Shown in pieces: positions 22,003 to 38,170 of a stretch of 64,000 bases of DNA. This DNA is from Gemmatimonas sp. (GTDB taxonomy: Bacteria > Gemmatimonadota > Gemmatimonadetes > Gemmatimonadales > Gemmatimonadaceae): assembly GCF_027531815.1 (NCBI RefSeq), contig NZ_JAPZSK010000005.1, positions 62,001-126,000 on the forward strand, written 5' to 3'. Made by a program: the position numbers and the translations under genes. Under the pieces are notes generated by a model. That model was not told the origin of the DNA. It saw only the letters and a list, made by a program, of their open reading frames with translations, and searched no databases. The first letter of the stretch is position 1. Every line of letters starts with the position of its first letter.

Positions 22003-22058
22003 GACTAAAGACTAAAGACTAGAGACTAGAGACTAAAGACTAGAGACTAATGACTCAA
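22003..22058. repeat. Seven-base tandem repeat, about eight units
   Basis: GACTAAA / GACTAGA / GACTAAT units run head to tail immediately after the thioredoxin stop and lead directly into the inverted-repeat element that follows. Confidence 0.8.
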
Positions 22059-22165
22059 AACCCGAACTCAGAACTCAGAACCGGTCAGTTCCGAGTCTTG
22101 AGTTCGAGTTCCGAGTCTTGAGTTCGAGTTCTCGGTTTTGAGTTCGAGTCGCAAGTCCTGAGTTC
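22051..22165. repeat. Word-built hairpin element, copy A (apex 22079-22090)
   Basis: The left arm is made of GAACTCA words and the right arm of repeated GAGTTCGAGTT and GAGTCTTGAGTTC words. They meet at AACCGGTCAGTT. The element fills the space between the convergent thioredoxin and arsR genes and could act as a bidirectional terminator. Four more copies share the AAC-N-G-R-T-C-N-G-T-T apex. Confidence 0.75.
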
Positions 22166-22613: not shown

Positions 22614-22701
22614 ACGACTCACAACCCGAACTCACACCCCGAACTCACACCCCGAAACGGATCAGTTCCGAGTTGTGAGTTGGAGTTCTGAGTTGTGAGT
22701 T
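22614..22701. repeat. Word-built hairpin element, copy B (apex 22656-22667)
   Basis: Arms of ACAACCCGAACTCACACC and GAGTTGTGAGTTGGAGTT words meet at AACGGATCAGTT. It lies just past the 3' end of the OsmC gene, upstream of the arsR promoter, so it could end OsmC transcription before it reaches arsR. Confidence 0.75.
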
Positions 22702-22742
22702 CCCGTGGAGGGGCGCGAGGGCAAGCCCCCGCGCCTGCAGAC

Positions 22743-26917: not shown

Positions 26918-27090
26918 GGCAACGACTCCGGTGAGGGTAGGGAGTGAACGGGTCCCGGACGGGTGCCCGTTGTCCTCATCATGGAGAGCCCAAAGATGGC
27001 CCAAAGGATTCAGGGGTGGGCGCCGGACTTTCCCGTCCCGCCCCGCGGGGCGAATTTCCGGAGTTGGTTTCCCCTACCCCAGACCATTCG

Positions 27091-29280
27091 ATGCGTCGCT
27101 CCGTACTCCTGACCGCCGTGGCGGCGGCCGCCCCCTGGGCCCTGCTCGCGCCCGTGGTGGCCCACGCCCAACCCCGCGCGCTCACCGCGGCCGACTACGC
27201 CCGGGCCGAGAAGTTCCTCGGCTTCAACACGCAGCCCCTCGTCTCCAACACCGGCGTCCAGCCCACGTGGCTCCCCGACGGCCGATTCACCTACCGTGTG
27301 CGGCAGAGCGACGGCACCCAGCCGCTCCTGCTCGTGAACGCCAAGGGGGTGAAGACCAACTGTGCCGCCGCCGGGGCCGCCTGCCCGCCGGAGACACCGC
27401 GCGCGACCCCGCGCAATCGTGGCAATGCCCCCGAAGTGCTCTCCCCCGACGGCAGCAAGGCGGCGTTCATTCGGGACTGGAACCTGTGGGTGCGTGACGT
27501 GGCCACGAACGCGGAAACGCCGGTCACCACCGACGGCGCGCCCGACTACGGCTACGCCACCGACAACGCCGGCTGGGTGCACAGCAACCGCGCCATCCTG
27601 CTCTGGTCCCCCGACTCGAAGAAGATCGCCACCTTCCAGCAGGACCAGCGCAAGACGGGGGAGATGTACCTCGTGCGCTACAAGGTGGGGCACCCCGAGC
27701 TGCTGCAGTGGAAGTACCCACTCCCCGGCGACAGCGCCGTCACCATGATCGAGCGTGTGGTCGTCGATCTCTCGGGCACCGCGCCCAAGGTGGTACGCTT
27801 CAGGATGCCCCCCGACGAGCACCGCAGCTCGGTGTGCGACCACATTGCCTGCGGCGGCAAGCTGTCCGACACGGAGTGGTTCCCCGACGGCAGCAAGGTG
27901 GCATTCCTCAGCAATTCGCGCGATCACAAGATCGCCACGCTGCGCGTGGCCGACGCCGTCACGGGTGACGTGCGCGACGTGCTGCGCGAGGAAGTGGCCA
28001 CGCAGTTCGAAAGCGGCGACGGCGACCAGAACTGGCGCGTGCTCCCCGCCAGCAACGAGGTGATCTGGTTCTCCGAGCGTGACGACTGGGGGCAGCTGTA
28101 CCTCTACGATCTCACCACCGGCACGCTGAAGAACAAGATCACCACCGGCGACGGCACGGTACTCGATCTCCAGCGCATCGACCCCAAGTCGCGCACCATC
28201 TGGTTCACGGCGGCCGGCAAGGAGGCGGGACGCGACCCGTACTTCCGTCATCTCTACCGCGTGCGCATGGACGGCAAGGGGCTCACGCTGCTCACCCCGG
28301 AAGACGGCGACCACAACGTGTCGCTCTCGCCCACCGGGACGCACTTCGTGGACAGCTGGTCGCGCCCCGACCTGCCCCCCACCGCGGTACTGCGCGATGC
28401 GAACAGCGGCAAGCTCATTGCCACGCTGGAGCAGGGGAACATCAGCAAGCTGCTCGCCGCCGGCTGGAAGCCGCCCACGCGCATCACCACCAAGGATCGC
28501 GACGGCAAGTGGGATCTGCACGGGCTCATGTGGACGCCCACCACGCTCGACAGCACGAAGAGGTACCCGATCATCAACTACATCTACCCGGGGCCGCAGG
28601 GGGGCTCGGTGGGGAGCCGGCAGTTCTCGCCCGCCACGCGCGACAACCAGGCGCTGGCCGAGTTGGGCTTCATCGTGGTGGCCATCGACGGCACCGGCAA
28701 CCCGACGCGCTCCAAGTCGTTCCACGACGCCTACTACGGCCGCATGGGCGACAACACGCTCCCCGACCAGATCGCGGCCATGCGTGAACTGGCGCGCCGG
28801 CACGCGTTCATCGATCTCGATCGTGTGGGCATCTGGGGGCACAGCGGCGGCGGCTTCGCCACGGCCGGCGCCTTGTTCCGTTACCCGGACTTCTTCAAGG
28901 TGGGGATCTCCGAGTCGGGCAATCACGACAACCGTAACTACGAAGACGACTGGGGCGAGCGCTATCACGGCCTGCTCGTGCGCAACGGCGCGAGCGACAA
29001 CTACGAGGCCGAGGCCAACCAGACGCTGGCGAAGAACCTCAAGGGCAAGCTGCTGCTCGCGCACGGCACGCTCGACGACAATGTGCCACCCGACAACACG
29101 TACCTGGTGGTGGACGCGCTCATCAAGGCGGGCAAGGATTTCGACCTGCTCATGATTCCCAACGCGGCGCATGGGTTTGGCGCCGCCACCAATTACATGA
29201 TGCGCCGCCGCTGGGATTACTTCGTGCAGCATTTGCTGGGCGCCACGCCGCCCAAGGAGTACGTGATCGGGCCGAAGTAG
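27091..29280 (+). CDS. Dipeptidyl-peptidase IV-like S9 serine peptidase
   Basis: The protein has 729 residues, the full length for S9B enzymes. A signal peptide ending at AHAQP selects the ATG at 27091. The DPP-IV propeller covers about residues 90-480 (WLPDGRFTYRV, SPDGSKAAFIRDWNLWVRD, WSPDSKKIATFQQD, WFSERDDWGQLYLYD). The catalytic domain shows YPGPQGGSVGSRQ, elbow GHSGGGFATA, acid in LDDNVPPDNT and His in AAHGFG. It cleaves dipeptides, usually after Pro or Ala, in the periplasm. Confidence 0.92.
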   Translation: MRRSVLLTAVAAAAPWALLAPVVAHAQPRALTAADYARAEKFLGFNTQPLVSNTGVQPTWLPDGRFTYRVRQSDGTQPLLLVNAKGVKTNCAAAGAACPPETPRATPRNRGNAPEVLSPDGSKAAFIRDWNLWVRDVATNAETPVTTDGAPDYGYATDNAGWVHSNRAILLWSPDSKKIATFQQDQRKTGEMYLVRYKVGHPELLQWKYPLPGDSAVTMIERVVVDLSGTAPKVVRFRMPPDEHRSSVCDHIACGGKLSDTEWFPDGSKVAFLSNSRDHKIATLRVADAVTGDVRDVLREEVATQFESGDGDQNWRVLPASNEVIWFSERDDWGQLYLYDLTTGTLKNKITTGDGTVLDLQRIDPKSRTIWFTAAGKEAGRDPYFRHLYRVRMDGKGLTLLTPEDGDHNVSLSPTGTHFVDSWSRPDLPPTAVLRDANSGKLIATLEQGNISKLLAAGWKPPTRITTKDRDGKWDLHGLMWTPTTLDSTKRYPIINYIYPGPQGGSVGSRQFSPATRDNQALAELGFIVVAIDGTGNPTRSKSFHDAYYGRMGDNTLPDQIAAMRELARRHAFIDLDRVGIWGHSGGGFATAGALFRYPDFFKVGISESGNHDNRNYEDDWGERYHGLLVRNGASDNYEAEANQTLAKNLKGKLLLAHGTLDDNVPPDNTYLVVDALIKAGKDFDLLMIPNAAHGFGAATNYMMRRRWDYFVQHLLGATPPKEYVIGPK

Positions 29281-29285
29281 TCGGG

Positions 29286-29360
29286 GGCAACTCCGAACTC
29301 ACAACCCGAACTCATGACTCGGAACCGATCGGTTTTGAGTCGTGAGTTCGGGTTTCGAGT
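29286..29360. repeat. Word-built hairpin element, copy C (apex 29323-29334)
   Basis: It follows the DPP-IV gene by five bases. GAACTCACAACCCGAACTCA words on the left pair with GAGTCGTGAGTTCGGGTTTC words on the right; the apex AACCGATCGGTT is a perfect palindrome. Confidence 0.75.
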
Positions 29361-29456
29361 TTGGGGTCAGAGTTGGGGTCAGAGTTGGGGTCAGAGTTGG
29401 GGTCAGAGCTGGGGTCAGAGCTGGGGTCAGAGCTGGGGTCAGAGCTGGGGTCAGAG
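29361..29456 (+). repeat. 12-base tandem repeat, eight units
   Basis: The unit is TTGGGGTCAGAG for the first four copies and CTGGGGTCAGAG for the last four, in an unbroken head-to-tail array. Its last unit continues as GGGGTCAGAGCACC; that 14-base end recurs at 29625-29638, on the far side of the inverted-repeat arm at 29470-29610. No gene is recognised here; frames through it encode only low-complexity sequence. Confidence 0.9.
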
Positions 29457-29469
29457 CACCCGTGCACGA

Positions 29470-29610
29470 CACGCCCCGGCTGGCGCCCGCTCACCCCGCT
29501 CGCTGCTCTCTTCGGGGGTGGCCGTGCGCCCTCCGTCGCTCCGCTCCTCCAGGCGCCGGCGTCACCCCCTCAGGGATCCGCTCACGGGGCGGCGGGGCCG
29601 CCGGGGCTGC
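29470..29610. repeat. Left arm of a long inverted-repeat pair
   Basis: This 141-base GC-rich block (from CACGCCCCGGCTGG to CCGGGGCTGC) reappears in reverse complement at 30116-30241 with high identity apart from one internal length difference. It is directly flanked by the 14-base repeat GGGGTCAGAGCACC at 29447-29460 and 29625-29638. Confidence 0.85.
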
Positions 29611-29649
29611 GCCTCTGCGGAACTGGGGTCAGAGCACCGGCGTCGGGGA

Positions 29650-29703
29650 CAACTTTGAACTCACAACCCGAACTCATAACTCGGAACTGATCGGTTTCGG
29701 GTT
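29650..29703. repeat. Word-built hairpin element, copy D (apex 29685-29696)
   Basis: The left arm GAACTCACAACCCGAACTCA matches copy C almost exactly; the apex is AACTGATCGGTT and the right arm is short (TTCGGGTTC). It lies at the 3' end of the small gene at 29722-30000. Confidence 0.7.
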
Positions 29704-29721
29704 CCCGACAGCCCGCGTGCC

Positions 29722-30000
29722 TCAGCGCCCCGGAGCGCCTGTCGGTGCGGGACGGACTTCATGGCAGCGACGCATGATCCGCCTCCGCGCGGGGTCCGGG
29801 AATGACAGGAAGTCCACCGACATCGAGTCGGTTCGCGTCTTCGCGCTGGCATAGGCATCGTGGCACTCGGCGGCATTGTGCACCCCGCGCACGGGTGCCA
29901 CCGCCAGCTTGCCCACCAGCAGTACGAGTCCGAGTGCGAGCGCCGCAGCCATGCCGTAACGCAGCGGACGCGAGTCGTGTGCGGTCGATTGCTGGTTCAC
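29722..30000 (-). CDS. Small single-pass membrane protein of unknown function
   Basis: The protein has 92 residues. A GTG start is preceded by GGGAG six bases upstream. One transmembrane helix (YGMAAALALGLVLLVGKLAVA) is followed by a short outside domain with two cysteines (NAAECHDAYA, IMRRCHEV) that could form a disulfide. I do not recognise the family. The gene lies between the two arms of the long inverted repeat. Confidence 0.55.
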   Translation of the reverse strand: MNQQSTAHDSRPLRYGMAAALALGLVLLVGKLAVAPVRGVHNAAECHDAYASAKTRTDSMSVDFLSFPDPARRRIMRRCHEVRPAPTGAPGR

Positions 30001-30115
30001 AGTGTGCTCCCGCCTCAGGTGATGCGACGATCAGCCGCCTTCACCGTGTAACTCGGCGAGCGGGGGGCCGCGTCACCGCCAGGGTCAGCGCCCCCCCGCG
30101 CCGCCCTGCACCAAT

Positions 30116-30241
30116 GCAGCCCCGGCGGCCCCGCCGCCCCGTGAGCGGATCCCTGAGGGGGTGACGCCGGCGCACGGCAGTGCGCCCGGCCACCCCCGAA
30201 GAGAGCAGCGAACGGGGTGAGCGGGTGCCAGCCGGGGCGTG
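30116..30241. repeat. Right arm of the long inverted-repeat pair
   Basis: Reverse complement of 29470-29610 (GCAGCCCCGGCGGCCCC to CCGGGGCGTG). Compared with the left arm it is shorter by about 15 bases near the middle. The rest of the 374-base gap between the small protein gene and the ATPase gene shows no gene. Confidence 0.85.
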
Positions 30242-30338
30242 TTGCCCGCCACCAAATCGCCGAACGCACCCGGCTGCCGCCCACAACGCGAAACACGTAC
30301 CCACAACCCGCACCCCGAACGCCCCGACCAAGCGAGTG

Positions 30339-30376
30339 TTGTTTTACGCAGAATATTGAGTAATTTTACTCAATAT
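30339..30376 (+). promoter_or_regulatory. Promoter with perfect 24-base palindrome over the ATPase start codon
   Basis: ATATTGAGTAA (30353-30363), TT, then TTACTCAATAT (30366-30376) form a perfect dyad that includes the AT of the start codon at 30375. TTGTTT (30339) and TAATTT (30361), 16 bases apart, are plausible -35 and -10 boxes, and no ribosome site is present. This implies a leaderless message blocked when a protein binds the palindrome. The stretch is strikingly AT-rich for this window. Confidence 0.6.
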
Positions 30377-31580
30377 GACGAGCAAAAAGCGTCCGTTCCA
30401 GCGCCTGGCGGCGGCGACCCTCGCGGCGCGTTTGGCCGAACCTCGCCGATTCATCCAGGTCGTGGCCGGGCCCCGTCAGGTGGGAAAAACGACGCTCGTC
30501 CAGCAGGTCACCGATACCCTCGGGGTACCCGTTCGGAGCGCCAGTGCCGACGAGCCGACGCTCAAGGGCGCCGACTGGATCGCCCAGCAGTGGGACGCCG
30601 CTCGGCTTGCCATCGCCCACGCGGACGGCGCGGTGCTGGTGCTCGACGAAATCCAGAAGATTCCCGGCTGGTCCGATACCGTGAAGCGCCTCTGGGACGA
30701 GGATACCCGGTCGCGGCGCCCGCTGCGCGTGGTCCTCCTCGGTTCGGCTCCGCTGCTGATAGCCCAGGGGCTGGCTGACAGCCTCGCTGGCCGCTTCGAA
30801 ACCATCCCGCTGGCCCACTGGTCGTTCGCCGAAATGCAGAGCGCCTTTGGCTGGTCACTCGACGAGTACCTGTTCTACGGCGGCTATCCTGGCGCGGCCC
30901 CGTTGATTGGCGATCCCACCCGCTGGGCGCGCTACGTGGCCGACAGTCTCATCGAAACCTCGATCTCGCGCGACGTGCTGCTCCTCACGCGCGTCGACAA
31001 GCCCGCCCTCCTGCGCCGCCTCTTCGAACTTGCCTGTCGCTACTCGGGGCAGATCCTGAGCTATACGAAAATGCTGGGGCAGTTGCAGGACGCCGGCAAC
31101 ACCACCACGCTCGCGCACTACCTCGACCTCCTCGCGAGTGCCGGCATGGTGTGCGGACTCCCCAAGTACGCCGGCGACGTTGCCAGAAGTCGCGGCTCGA
31201 GCCCCAAGTTGCAGGTGCTGAACACGGCACTGATGACCGTGACCAGCGGCATCACCATGACCGAGGCGCGCGCCGACCGCGAGTTCTGGGGGCGGCTGGT
31301 GGAGTCCGCTGTCGGCGCCCACCTCGCGAATGCCGCCATGCGCGGCGAATGCACCGTGCACTACTGGCGTGAACGCAATCACGAAGTGGATTTCGTGGTG
31401 CAGGCCGGTCGCACCCTCACCGCCATCGAAGTGAAAAGTGGGCGGGCGCCGCAGGCGCATGCGGGGACCGCCGCCTTCTCGCGGGCGTTTCGGCCAACAC
31501 GGACCCTGCTGGTGGGAGGCGATGGGATCGCCCTCGACGAGTTCCTGACCAGGCCGGTGACGCATTGGCTGGGCGCCTGA
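30375..31580 (+). CDS. AAA-family ATPase with DUF4143 domain
   Basis: The protein has 401 residues. The N-terminal AAA_14 domain has the P-loop GPRQVGKTT and Walker B VLVLDEIQK. The C-terminal DUF4143 domain begins near residue 165, after LAHWSFAEM, and contains the nuclease-like pattern REFWGRLVESAVGAHL and YWRERNHEVDFVVQ ... AIEVKSG, where the D...E-x-K resembles a PD-(D/E)XK site. The family is widespread and mobile in bacteria and archaea, function unknown. Position beside repeats and an AT-rich operator suggests transfer. Confidence 0.88.
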   Translation: MTSKKRPFQRLAAATLAARLAEPRRFIQVVAGPRQVGKTTLVQQVTDTLGVPVRSASADEPTLKGADWIAQQWDAARLAIAHADGAVLVLDEIQKIPGWSDTVKRLWDEDTRSRRPLRVVLLGSAPLLIAQGLADSLAGRFETIPLAHWSFAEMQSAFGWSLDEYLFYGGYPGAAPLIGDPTRWARYVADSLIETSISRDVLLLTRVDKPALLRRLFELACRYSGQILSYTKMLGQLQDAGNTTTLAHYLDLLASAGMVCGLPKYAGDVARSRGSSPKLQVLNTALMTVTSGITMTEARADREFWGRLVESAVGAHLANAAMRGECTVHYWRERNHEVDFVVQAGRTLTAIEVKSGRAPQAHAGTAAFSRAFRPTRTLLVGGDGIALDEFLTRPVTHWLGA

Positions 31581-31596
31581 ACGCGAGAGTCGCCAC

Positions 31597-31670
31597 CCAT
31601 AACTGAAAACCCAAACTCACGACTCAAAACAGATCAGTTTCGAGAGGTGAGTTCGGGTTTTGAGTCATGA
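31597..31670. repeat. Word-built hairpin element, copy E (apex 31628-31639)
   Basis: AAAACCCAAACTCACGACTCA on the left (beginning AACCCAAACTCACGACTC) and GGTGAGTTCGGGTTTTGAGT on the right meet at AACAGATCAGTT. It fills the gap between the convergent ATPase and amidohydrolase genes. Confidence 0.75.
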
Positions 31671-31695
31671 GTGCACGACGACCGTCGACCTCCAA

Positions 31696-34600
31696 CTACG
31701 GCCGAATGCCCGCCCCCGCCACCGGCACCGTGTACGCCCACGGCTGCTTCACCATGGGCTTCTGGCGCGGGTGCACCTCGTCGAGCGTGTTGGCGTCGAA
31801 CAGGCGCCCGTTCACCATCACCATGCGCAGCGTGTTGGTGTTGCGGATGTTCACCAGCGGGTCCTGGTCCAGCACCAGCAGGTCGGCAAACTTGCCGGGC
31901 TCGAGCGAACCGATCTCGCTGCCCAACCCAATGGCCTCGGCGCCCACGATCGTTGCCGCCCGCAGCGCGTCGTGGGTGCTCATGCCCCCCGACTGCACGA
32001 GCCACAGCTCCCAGTGCATCCCCAGCCCCTGCAGCTGCCCGTGGCTGCCAATGCCCACGCGCCCGCCACGCTCGACGGTCTTCGCGAGATCCTCGGCGTG
32101 CTGCCACATGGCGTACTCCTCCTTCACCGCGAAGCCCGCGGGGCCGGGGGCGTTGCCGGCGCCACGACGACGCACCTTGCTGTCGAAGTCCACGGGATGC
32201 GTGAAGCGACGCAGCTTGGCGTCGTCGAGCAGGTTCTCCGTCTGGTAGAACCACCCCTCCCCAAAGGGGCCGCCGTACTCCACCACGAGCGTGGGGGAGT
32301 TCACCACCTGCGTGGCCTTGTACCACTCGAAGACGTCGTCGTACTTGGGCGTGATCGGCAGCGTATGCTCGATGCCGGGGTAGCCATCGATGCCGTGCGT
32401 GATGTTGAGCTTCTGATCGAGCCCGCCCTCGGTGGTGGGCATGATCCCCAGCTCCTTCGCCGCCATGATGATCCACTGCCGCTGCTGCCGGTTGCCGCTC
32501 ATGTACATCTTGAGCGTCTTGGTGTCGTAGTACTTCGCGTAGCGCGTGAGGATGTCCTTCGCGTGCGCGAGGTCCCGCACCGGCTCGCTGCTGAAGACGC
32601 CGGGGCCCGTGGTGTAGATGCGCGGCCCGATCATCTCCCCGTTCTCCACCCGATCGCTGTACGACAGGAAGTCCGTCGTGGCGGTCTGCGGATCGCGCGT
32701 GGTAGTGGTGCCGTAGGCCAGCGTGGCCAGGTACTGCCACGTCTGCGTGTTGTGGATGTTGGGCGTGAGCCACTGCGGGTGATAGTGCGTGTCCACCATG
32801 CCGGGCATGATCACCTTGCCCGTGGCATCGATGATGGTGGCGCCCTCGGGGATGGTCACGCTGCCGCGCGCGCCCACCGCCACGATGCGCTGGTCCTTCA
32901 CCACGATGTCGGCGTTCTCGATGATCTCCTTCCCCTTCATCGTGATCGCCTTGGCGCCACGGAACACCACCGTGCCCTTGGGCAGGTCACGCTGGCCGGC
33001 CACCTCGACGCGCAGCTCGCTCGCCTTGTAGCCGGGCGGGGTCTTCTTGGTGGTGTCAGCCTTGGCGATCGAGTCGGCACGCGCGATGCTGTCCTTCACC
33101 GCCTTCGTGGTGTCGGCACGCAGTCGCGCCTTGCGCTTGTCTTCGACCTTGAGCGAATCGTCCACCACCTTCGCGCGGTCGAGATCGTAGGTGAAGAGCG
33201 AGTTGGCCAGCGCCCAGTGCACCTTGCGCCCGTCGGCCGACCAGGTGGCGAATTCGCCGCCAATGGTGTTGAGCTTCTTCACCGGCACCGGCGCCGCCTC
33301 CGGCGCGGCGACACTCACCGTGGGCGCCGTCGCACCGACGAGGGGGACGGTGACGGTGTACAAGTCCATGCCCACCGTGGCCAGCGCCTGATCGCCATTG
33401 GGTGACATCACGATGAGCGAGGCGGGCGGCGCCGACGGCGTGGGCTCCATGTCGTGCCCATCGTCGAGGTGCATGCCCTGGCTCACAGGACGCGCGCCGC
33501 GACCACCAAAGGTGAGCTTGGCTTCCTTGGCCACCAGCGCGCCGTCCAGGTTCCCCGCGTTCGGCGGCATGGGCCCGGTGACGCGCAGGTGGGTCTTGAG
33601 ATCGGTCCCGTCCCAACGGAACGACTGCAACCCGCCACTGAAGCTGTAGGCGAAGATGCGCGTGGTGTCCTTCGTGAAGTGCGGCGCACTCATACCGCCG
33701 GCGGGCATGATGAGATTCACCGCGCCGCCGGTGGCCGGCAACCACACCAACTCGGCGGCCGCAGGACCAAAGAAAGCACCGCCCGCTTCCTGCATTTCGC
33801 GCGCGGCGGCACGCGACGCCACCAGACGCGTGCCGGTGGGGGCCCACGCCAGGTCGGTGTACAGCCCGGCCACGGTGGTGAGGGCGCGTGTGCGCCACAC
33901 GCCCTTGGCGTCACGATCGGCGCGCATGATCTGGCCACCGCGCGCGTCTTCCCACGTCACGTACGCGAGCGACTTGCCATCGGGGGCCCACACGGGGCTG
34001 AACTCGCCGCTCGCCGCGTTCGACACGCGCGCGGGCTTCATGTCGGCGAACGCCATCACGTACAGGCGATCGAGCGCCGTGAACGCCAGCGACTTGCCGT
34101 CGGGCGACGGCTGCAGGTCGCGAATCTGCCGCGCCGTGAACGTGGGCGTGGTGTCCACCTTGTACGCGAACTTCACCTCGGGGGCCAGCTCCAACTTCAC
34201 TTCGGCGGTGAAGGGGATCTTCACGGGCGCCGTCTTGTCGATGGGCACGCGCCAGAATTCCCCGCCGTAGCTCACGACGATGGCCTTCGAGTCGGGGGTG
34301 AAGGCATAGCCCGGGTAGGCATCCATGGGCGCGCGCGACTCCATGTCGTCGCGCTGCACGGGGAACGCCAGCCACTCCTCCTGCTGCGTCTCGAGGTTGC
34401 GACGCATGAGCCCCGTCTTGGTCTCGAAGCGCGTGGCGTACACGAGCCACTTGCCATCGGGGGAGAGCGCCGGGCGCGCGCCCGAGCCGTAGCGCGTGCT
34501 CATCTGCGACACGCGGCCGTTCTCGCGGTCCCACACGGCCAGCTGGTACTGGGGGCCGATGCTGTTGTACTGCCAGTCACCGGTGCGCGTGGCGAACCAA

Positions 34601-35238
34601 ATGAAGCGCGGATTGCTGCCGAAGGCGGCGCCCATCTGCTTCTGCGTCGGCGGGGCGGCCGGCTGGGTACTGAGCGGGACGCCGTTGCCCCCATCCACGT
34701 GATACATCCACAGCTTGGCAATGCCGCCCAGGCCACCGCTGCGCGAGGCCACGATGTACTTGCCGTCGGGGGAGTACTCGGGGGAGACGTAGAGGTTGTT
34801 GTTCCCCTTGGTCACCTGCGTGCTGTCGCGCGTGTCGAGCGCCAGCGTCCACACGTTGTCGCCCCCCGACCGGTCGGAGACGAACACCACCGACTTGCCG
34901 TCGGGTGCGTAGCGCGGCTGGGCATCGTACGCCATGCCGCTGGTGAGCCGCGTGGCGGTGCCGCCGGTGATCGGCATGGTGTACAGGTCACCCAGCAGGT
35001 CGAAGACGAGCGTCTGCCCGTCGGGCGACACATCGACGCTCATCCACGTGCCCTTGCTCGTGGTGAAGGTGTGGGTGCGTGCGGCCTTGAGGGGGAGACC
35101 GGCCGAGGGCGGCGCTGGCTGCGCCGAGAGCGACGCGCTCGCGAGCGCGGTGGCGGCCAGCATTCCCGCCGCCAGTGCGCGCGGCCGGGACAGGATACCC
35201 GCCGCCAGTGCGCGCGGCCGGGAGAGGAAGGGGTGCAT
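31696..35238 (-). CDS. Secreted TolB-propeller/amidohydrolase fusion protein
   Basis: The protein has 1180 residues with an AAGGA ribosome site six bases before the ATG. After the signal peptide, residues about 50-700 carry TolB/PD40 propeller repeats (VSPDGQTLVFDLLGDLY, YAPDGKSVVFVSDRSGGDN, WAPDGKSLAYVTWED). The C-terminal third is a metal-dependent amidohydrolase: HxH motif VDTHYHPQW, GIEHTL, IGSHGQLQGLG, and an LLVLDQDPL end. Substrates are often imides, lactams or peptides; here unknown. The signal peptide contains an 11-residue duplication (LSRPRALAAG twice). Confidence 0.9.
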   Translation of the reverse strand: MHPFLSRPRALAAGILSRPRALAAGMLAATALASASLSAQPAPPSAGLPLKAARTHTFTTSKGTWMSVDVSPDGQTLVFDLLGDLYTMPITGGTATRLTSGMAYDAQPRYAPDGKSVVFVSDRSGGDNVWTLALDTRDSTQVTKGNNNLYVSPEYSPDGKYIVASRSGGLGGIAKLWMYHVDGGNGVPLSTQPAAPPTQKQMGAAFGSNPRFIWFATRTGDWQYNSIGPQYQLAVWDRENGRVSQMSTRYGSGARPALSPDGKWLVYATRFETKTGLMRRNLETQQEEWLAFPVQRDDMESRAPMDAYPGYAFTPDSKAIVVSYGGEFWRVPIDKTAPVKIPFTAEVKLELAPEVKFAYKVDTTPTFTARQIRDLQPSPDGKSLAFTALDRLYVMAFADMKPARVSNAASGEFSPVWAPDGKSLAYVTWEDARGGQIMRADRDAKGVWRTRALTTVAGLYTDLAWAPTGTRLVASRAAAREMQEAGGAFFGPAAAELVWLPATGGAVNLIMPAGGMSAPHFTKDTTRIFAYSFSGGLQSFRWDGTDLKTHLRVTGPMPPNAGNLDGALVAKEAKLTFGGRGARPVSQGMHLDDGHDMEPTPSAPPASLIVMSPNGDQALATVGMDLYTVTVPLVGATAPTVSVAAPEAAPVPVKKLNTIGGEFATWSADGRKVHWALANSLFTYDLDRAKVVDDSLKVEDKRKARLRADTTKAVKDSIARADSIAKADTTKKTPPGYKASELRVEVAGQRDLPKGTVVFRGAKAITMKGKEIIENADIVVKDQRIVAVGARGSVTIPEGATIIDATGKVIMPGMVDTHYHPQWLTPNIHNTQTWQYLATLAYGTTTTRDPQTATTDFLSYSDRVENGEMIGPRIYTTGPGVFSSEPVRDLAHAKDILTRYAKYYDTKTLKMYMSGNRQQRQWIIMAAKELGIMPTTEGGLDQKLNITHGIDGYPGIEHTLPITPKYDDVFEWYKATQVVNSPTLVVEYGGPFGEGWFYQTENLLDDAKLRRFTHPVDFDSKVRRRGAGNAPGPAGFAVKEEYAMWQHAEDLAKTVERGGRVGIGSHGQLQGLGMHWELWLVQSGGMSTHDALRAATIVGAEAIGLGSEIGSLEPGKFADLLVLDQDPLVNIRNTNTLRMVMVNGRLFDANTLDEVHPRQKPMVKQPWAYTVPVAGAGIRP

Positions 35239-36581: not shown

Positions 36582-36942
36582 CTCCGCGGGGGAACTACGC
36601 GTGAGCGACGACGCGTTGGCGCCCACGCGTTGGCAGCAACGTGTTGGCACGAACGCGTTGGCAGCAACGTGTTGGCACGAACGCGTTGGCACCAACGATG
36701 AGCCGCGCTGGCGACCACGAACCGCACCAACGCGAGGCAACAACGTGGGGTGGGGTCGGGGGGCGGCGGTGCCGGCGTCGTGGGCGTGGTCTCGGGCGCA
36801 GGTGACGTGGTTGCCCTGCGTTGGTGTTCCACGTTGGCGCCAGCGCGGCTCATCGTTGGTGCAAGAGCGTTCGTGCCCACACGTTGCTGCCAACGCGTGG
36901 GCGCCAACGCGTCGTTGCTCACGCGCTGTTGCCCCGCGTGGT
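36582..36942. repeat. Giant hairpin of ACGCGTTGG words between convergent genes
   Basis: The left arm starts GCGTGAGCGACGACGCG (36599-36615) and the right arm ends with its 16/17 complement (36908-36924); pairing continues inward through GCGCCCACGCGTTGGCAGC. The left arm alone has a 28-base duplication (units from about 36628 and 36656). This fills the 394-base gap between the TSUP and cupredoxin stops; no gene is visible in it. It could be an oversized bidirectional terminator or a structured DNA site. Confidence 0.8.
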
Positions 36943-37869: not shown

Positions 37870-38050
37870 AAGAAACTCACGGGCAGAAGGTGAACTCTAC
37901 CTGAACCCCGATAGACCCCGGGCGCAAGCGCAGGTATTGCCGAGCCCTGCCGTAGCGCGTTCCGACGCTGTGCAATCCCAATGCGTGCAGTGTCCTCCCC
38001 TCCAGCGCGTGGTCGCCCGCGTGGTTACCCGCGCCCGCATGCGTCAGTGC

Positions 38051-38170
38051 CAACGCGTCCCTGCCAACGCGTCCCTGCCAACGCGTCCCTGCCAACGCGT
38101 CCCTGCCAACGCGTCCCTGCCAACGCGTCCCTACCAACGCGTCCCTACCAACGCGTCCCTACCAACGCGT
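38051..38170. repeat. 14-base tandem array, nine units, each with ACGCGT
   Basis: CAACGCGTCCCTGC repeats every 14 bases at 38051, 38065 and on to 38163; the last three junctions read CTAC instead of CTGC. It lies in the 352-base gap between the dehydrogenase stop and the cupredoxin start; no gene is visible in that gap. On the minus strand it contains the word ACGCGTTGGCAG that also builds the hairpin at 36582-36942. Confidence 0.92.

Follow-up and report, generated by a model that had tools for sequence, protein, structure and literature searches.

The locus lies between the genes of an S9 peptidase and a large amidohydrolase-like protein, in a 64,000 nt stretch of Gemmatimonas DNA (the window). 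Three kinds of repeat are found side by side here: an array of 12-base units, a hairpin of about 140 bases that forms an inverted pair (the left and right arms), and a third hairpin of another type (Table 1). The arms enclose one small gene. The genome carrying the locus (G000; 4.3 Mb, 27 contigs) was analysed as one of a set of 30 genomes of the genus.

Table 1. Genes and repeats at the locus, with positions in the window.
Feature	Position	Strand	Remarks
Left flanking gene, S9 peptidase	26944..29280	+	778-aa ORF (DPPIV_N + Peptidase_S9)
GAACTCA-type hairpin, 78 bp	29290..29367	none	DNA fold -28.6 kcal/mol, z -7.45
Eight-unit array of 12 bp, TGGGGTCAGAG(T/C)	29362..29457	+	matches end motif beside Y1 transposase gene
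Left arm, copy of ~107-154-nt hairpin element	29466..29610	+	profile model; fold z -2.35
Lone ninth 12-mer unit	29624..29635	+	accounts for the 14-base direct repeat of the original prediction
Partial second GAACTCA hairpin	29642..29702	none	89% identical to 29280-29340
Small gene, 92-aa protein	29722..30000	-	one likely membrane segment; no Pfam/NCBIfam family
Right arm, inverted copy of hairpin element	30113..30245	-	profile model; fold z -5.90
AAA_14 / DUF4143 ATPase gene	30375..31580	+	in lineage-specific stretch
GAACTCA-type hairpin	31595..31674	none	ahead of right flanking gene
Right flanking gene	31696..35238	-	1180-aa ORF, amidohydrolase-like by reading of sequence

A tandem-repeat scan of the window gave 8.0 copies of the 12 bp unit. 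The original prediction of eight units was therefore correct in number, although not in describing them as perfect, as three units of TGGGGTCAGAGT are followed by five of TGGGGTCAGAGC. Allowing up to one mismatch, 10 copies of the 12-mer were found across the whole window, compared to 0.51 expected by chance. The array itself gives no folding signal (z 0.17). The hairpin abutting it on the left is near-perfect and belongs to a family with 28 matches in the genome; its left half recurs on the right-hand side of the left arm. Further intergenic GAACTCA-type hairpins, accompanied by short arrays of 7, 13 and 20 bp, occur at window positions 22003-22165 and 22617-22702. There are also 14 bp arrays based on ACGCGTTGGCA / TGCCAACGCGT at 36611-36697 and 38048-38170, on opposite strands and about 1.4 kb apart.

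An inverted-repeat search recovered the two arms (29469-29610 / 30116-30242) as two blocks that are 88% and 93% complementary, and the arm-to-arm match within the genome has an E value of 4.5e-43. By the profile-model borders the arms are 85% identical and separated by 502 nt, with a loop deletion of about 15 nt in the right arm, which bears out the predicted pair of ~140-base inverted repeats lying some 500 bases apart. Each arm is also one long hairpin in its own right. The left arm had been described as flanked by a 14-base direct repeat, as if inserted into the array. The repeat exists and is in fact 16 nt long (CTGGGGTCAGAGCACC, at 29445-29460 and 29623-29638), but it amounts to one more copy of the dispersed 12-mer, leaving a target-site duplication unsupported, and no insertion scar is visible. 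The array, the arms and this repeat all go far beyond chance expectation. The ninth unit may have been inserted relative to a copy elsewhere in the genome (C5:24493), but in a MAFFT alignment no gap is forced at that point.

The small enclosed gene was correctly seen to have no known family, with no match in Pfam or NCBIfam. Homologues are present in 15 of the 30 genus genomes (36-61% identity in the 14 other genomes) and occupy at least five different neighbourhoods in the genus. The ORF is a real gene whose location varies between species and which here lies between two arms. The S9 gene and the right flanking gene are neighbours in relatives, where the gap between them, measured by match ends, is as short as ~108 bp (G001) or 257 bp (G012), and, in keeping with the original prediction, the region adds DNA between genes that lie close together there. 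In G006 the same locus holds GAACTCA hairpins and some 0.5 kb of additional DNA, while G014, which keeps both flanking genes (S9 gene 92% identical), has an unrelated 5.3 kb and no array beside its S9 gene. Given this differing content, the stretch 29281-31695, including the ATPase gene, is lineage-specific in this sample. Among the relatives compared at the locus, no junction marks the age or the limits of the array or of the arms, and the anticipated empty site with a single 14-base copy has no clean example among them.

The 11-mer TGGGGTCAGAG is present in 72 copies at about ten loci in G000 (reversed control, 0), in 58 copies in G013 and in 47 in G014, with 0-4 in the other genus genomes (reversed control, 0-2). 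Six array loci are orthologous between G000 and G014, including that of the Y1 transposase gene described below; four in G000, among them the window's, and one in G014 lack an ortholog match. One of three array loci used as queries (C5:29.7k) has no match in G014. The window's site and the lineage-specific array loci that were checked for empty sites showed only remodelled intergenic DNA; among all loci compared, neither the array nor the arms gave a clean filled/empty pair, and no insertion event was caught.

A likely source of the 12-mer is found elsewhere in the genome. G000 has a single Y1_Tnp gene (PF01797, above cut-off), and its 241-aa ORF, as read from the translation, carries HVH and YIDQNP, corresponding to the HuH and Y---NP motifs. 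Inverted arrays of the window's 12-mer flank this gene on both sides. The other seven Y1 loci of the genus also have GGGGTCAGAG on both sides, within the same 12-mer in G014 and within other contexts in the rest (e.g., TCAAGGGGTCAGAGTCGTTGAA or GAAAGGGGTCAGAGTC). Across the family, 20 of the 25 Y1 loci that were read have at least one copy of GGGGTCRGA nearby (four or five of them on one side only), while the reversed control gave two matches in all. Genes of the TIRYT group and their TIR repeat families have been described as 'TIRtrons' (Di Nocera et al. 2013, PMC3733652) and as TnpAY1 subclass 2.1 (PMC6006769); their ends share the consensus GGGGWSAS, and the repeats make up families that are scattered through genomes and frequently occur in clusters (PMC3733652, PMC6006769). 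Gemmatimonas is absent from both papers. The array motif fits this consensus in its sequence, and the 12 bp array probably belongs to the family of end repeats (TIR) that goes with the one Y1 HUH gene in the genome, a gene of the TIRYT kind. The NCBIfam model of REP-associated tyrosine transposases (NF047646) gave scores of 71.8 bits, for the G000 protein, and 59.7 bits, both below its cut-off of 80. Since Pfam models up to E 5 revealed no C-terminal HTH in the Y1 protein, the array is classed as TIRYT-like and not as a proven member of subclass 2.1. The Y1 HUH enzyme would cut and join single strands at GGGGTCAG, so seeding copies, and head-to-tail growth to eight units may have followed via slippage or unequal recombination. 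In G013, which is rich in the 12-mer, the Y1 gene was not found; the repeat may outlive its enzyme, or the gene may lie in a missing part of that genome.

The arms are multi-copy, as had been suspected, with 9 matches in this genome and matches in 15 of the 30 genus genomes. A profile of the arms sets their borders and finds copies in many genus genomes, the size range of 107-154 nt being that of well-scoring copies, and the counts are lower bounds because some copies lie near contig ends (e.g., G000:C16, C22). By exact-pattern search, arms occur only in Gemmatimonas or Gemmatimonadaceae records and in one pond MAG, which a genus search placed in Gemmatimonas; neither an exact-pattern search of IMG/VR nor PLSDB yielded any, and so far the family has been seen only in Gemmatimonas. 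Matches to miRNA families of Rfam were far below gathering scores and were rejected as artefacts of hairpin shape. A literature search for Gemmatimonas with palindromic repeats or attC returned nothing relevant.

The copies have a common core, CTTCGGGGGTGGCC...GGCGTCACCCCCTCAG, while their outer stems vary between loci. Such variable stems misalign in column-wise covariation, and a stem-swap test was used for this reason. Among 25 non-redundant arms, with kinship ignored, 5′ and 3′ stems from the same arm fold with a mean of -32.2 kcal/mol, compared to -22.1 kcal/mol for swapped stems; the sum of -804 lies well below the permuted mean of -563 (sd 19) and below the lowest of 20,000 permutations (-658), kinship again being ignored. 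The arms are probably non-autonomous palindromic intergenic elements, and their stems may stay complementary through selection acting on the folded strand or through quasipalindrome correction. A single case, in G020, suggests movement: an arm is present twice, ~10 kb apart, together with some 20 nt of left and right flank, the second copy having inverted GGGGTCAGAG motifs on both sides, but this could be an ordinary duplication. An arm beside intI in G015 was considered as the filled partner of an empty site in G000 and then dropped; G000 seems to keep the edge of the arm, which in this loose alignment points to a deletion.

Neighbouring arms open as + then - in all 17 pairs, a count that includes orthologous loci several times and reduces to about eight independent loci when judged by flanking genes. 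Gaps between neighbouring arms are 15 to 700 bp, and five additional - copies are spread over four loci. The + ... - pairing is a genuine rule of the arm family. Many arm loci are common to several species. An arm pair lies beside one gene of ~520 aa (MS.PTLAFVAPWECSRAVAN or MSALTLAFVAPWECSRAVAN...) in G000, G005, G014 and G020; at this place G003 and G016 have a gene with the same FR.SL.Y end. The genes between the arms differ between species (L107 vs L115; L110 vs L112 vs L121). At one site G003 has two additional gene-plus-arm units where G025 has a bare pair; at another, a peroxiredoxin gene lies between the arms in G016, and is in the opposite orientation and joined by another small gene in G003; G000 has a single arm there. 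Inverted pairing of the arms may allow the intervening DNA to be flipped, lost or replaced. At one locus of G016 (L111 107-5226, G016:C1), two copies of the 3′ end of the gene that precedes the arm pair lie about 3.9 kb apart and enclose other genes, which looks like an addition of DNA at this site. A segment of ~2 kb that includes an arm is 97% identical between G014 and G015 (L009, G014:C57; L010, G015:C2), compared with S9 genes that are 92% and 86% identical to that of the window, pointing to recent transfer or misbinning.

The 12-mer and arm families are separable: the genome of G003, assembled as one contig, yields 13 arm matches with no Y1 gene and no TGGGGTCAGAG, and G013 has its many 12-mers with no arm match. 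Arms as cargo of the resident Y1 enzyme were rejected: a Y1 gene is present more often in arm-rich genomes (5 of 8) than in the others (3 of 22; p = 0.016), but for a grouping made post hoc and with relatedness ignored, and the genome richest in arms, G003, has no Y1 gene. The locus, an intergenic site that changes quickly, is probably a mosaic of dispersed repeats independent of one another, and not one element. The original prediction is partly supported: its anatomy was right, but array and arms as one mobile unit or composite insertion are not supported, and the two families occur without each other.

If the locus were nevertheless a composite or non-autonomous unit, the arms would be terminal inverted repeats that carry the 92-aa gene and were inserted into the array with a 14-base duplication. 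Arms that are multi-copy and always paired as + ... -, a locus that is absent in relatives, and identical 16 bases on either side of the left arm are what such a unit would leave. Those 16 bases, however, stand on either side of one arm, not of both together, and form a unit of a repeat that is spread through the genome, and the flanks of 13 arm pairs and arrays, read by eye, have no obvious target duplication. Pairs also occupy the same sites in several species, solo copies of the arm exist, and no transposase was seen between the arms at the loci read, where copies cut off at contig ends may conceal some. A composite unit is accordingly unlikely. Conservation of sites between species, together with strong folding and an intergenic position that is often behind the 3′ ends of genes, would suit unusually large transcription terminators or RNA-stabilising hairpins that are vertically inherited and not mobile. 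Arms are also found between the end of one gene and the start of the following gene, and at L107 and L110 they are on both sides of single genes; with the duplication of an arm and its flanks in G020, this makes a terminator role quite improbable.

Hairpins of this length, lying between small genes and varying in their stems, bring to mind an integron-like cassette system, in which the arms would be recombination sites without attC cores and a recombinase would add, flip or remove single genes. The order '+ - gene - gene -' in G003, the opposite orientations of the peroxiredoxin gene between arms in two species and the 92-aa gene between the arms of the window are in keeping with this, and many genomes of the genus encode an integron integrase. 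The ends of the arms are without RYYYAAC / GTTRRRY, and arms as attC sites were rejected: the same pattern finds ordinary candidates (GCCTAAC ... GTTAGGC) in the integrase-locus stretches L187 and L192. The sole arm in those stretches is that of G015, and no recombinase adjoins the arm arrays, so that a cassette system of this kind is very improbable. The integrase (TIGR02249) scores above cut-off in 18 of the 30 genus genomes (in G000, L186 391-1449 on C17), and in G000 and G015 it adjoins a gene ending in ...APRPITP / APRPVTP.

Small genes between 31 bp palindromes (GGGGTCAGAGTCGTTNAACGACTCTGACCCC), which are spaced 0.7-1.7 kb apart, were seen in G016 (L123 5342-9289, G016:C2) and G020 (L122 5300-16400, G020:C128). 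Several of the genes are of toxin-antitoxin type (Unstab_antitox, Phd/YefM + ParE, and an HI1420-type antidote with a weak Gp49 match), and there is a DUF6733 gene. A Sortilin/BNR gene and an arm lie upstream of the stretch, and its gene content differs between the two genomes. The arrangement resembles gene cassettes with the Y1 end motif at their borders. If palindrome- or hairpin-bounded genes are mobile, they would provide a route for gene shuffling in a phylum with very little genetics.

An unexplained minisatellite-like array is linked here, via a short motif, to a named class of enzyme, the single-copy Y1 HUH transposase of the TIRYT kind, and Gemmatimonas is added to a little-studied group. 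The arms constitute a hairpin repeat family in which stems are locus-specific yet complementary and copies form inverted pairs around genes. The parts of the locus fall into known kinds of bacterial repeat, and the arm family and the differences in genes between arms are worth following.

ERIC and YPAL are large palindromic intergenic repeats or MITEs of about 100-150 nt. The arms are similar in size (~100-150 nt), strong folding, and dispersed intergenic location, but have no sequence relationship to them within the reach of Rfam and pattern searches, and differ in being kept as + ... - pairs that bracket genes, with locus-specific stems that are still complementary. Both ERIC and YPAL are named in the TIRtron study (PMC3733652). 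With attC sites the arms have in common that they are long hairpins of variable sequence and conserved fold beside small genes; they differ in having no attC core sites. The array and its enzyme are like RAYT / REP / REPIN systems (PMC3116915, PMC2817692) in that a single-copy Y1 enzyme has its own dispersed repeat family, but the motif here is GGGGTCAG and not a hairpin tagged with GT[AG]G; in contrast to a GTAG-REP palindrome, the array with its unit TGGGGTCAGAGC shows no fold. The likeness to TIRYT elements is that a single Y1 HUH gene lies between inverted repeats of the GGGGWSAS type and copies of the repeat are dispersed in the genome, singly and clustered. Here, by contrast, the Y1 protein has no detected C-terminal HTH domain, and the copies form head-to-tail arrays of up to about nine 12 bp units.
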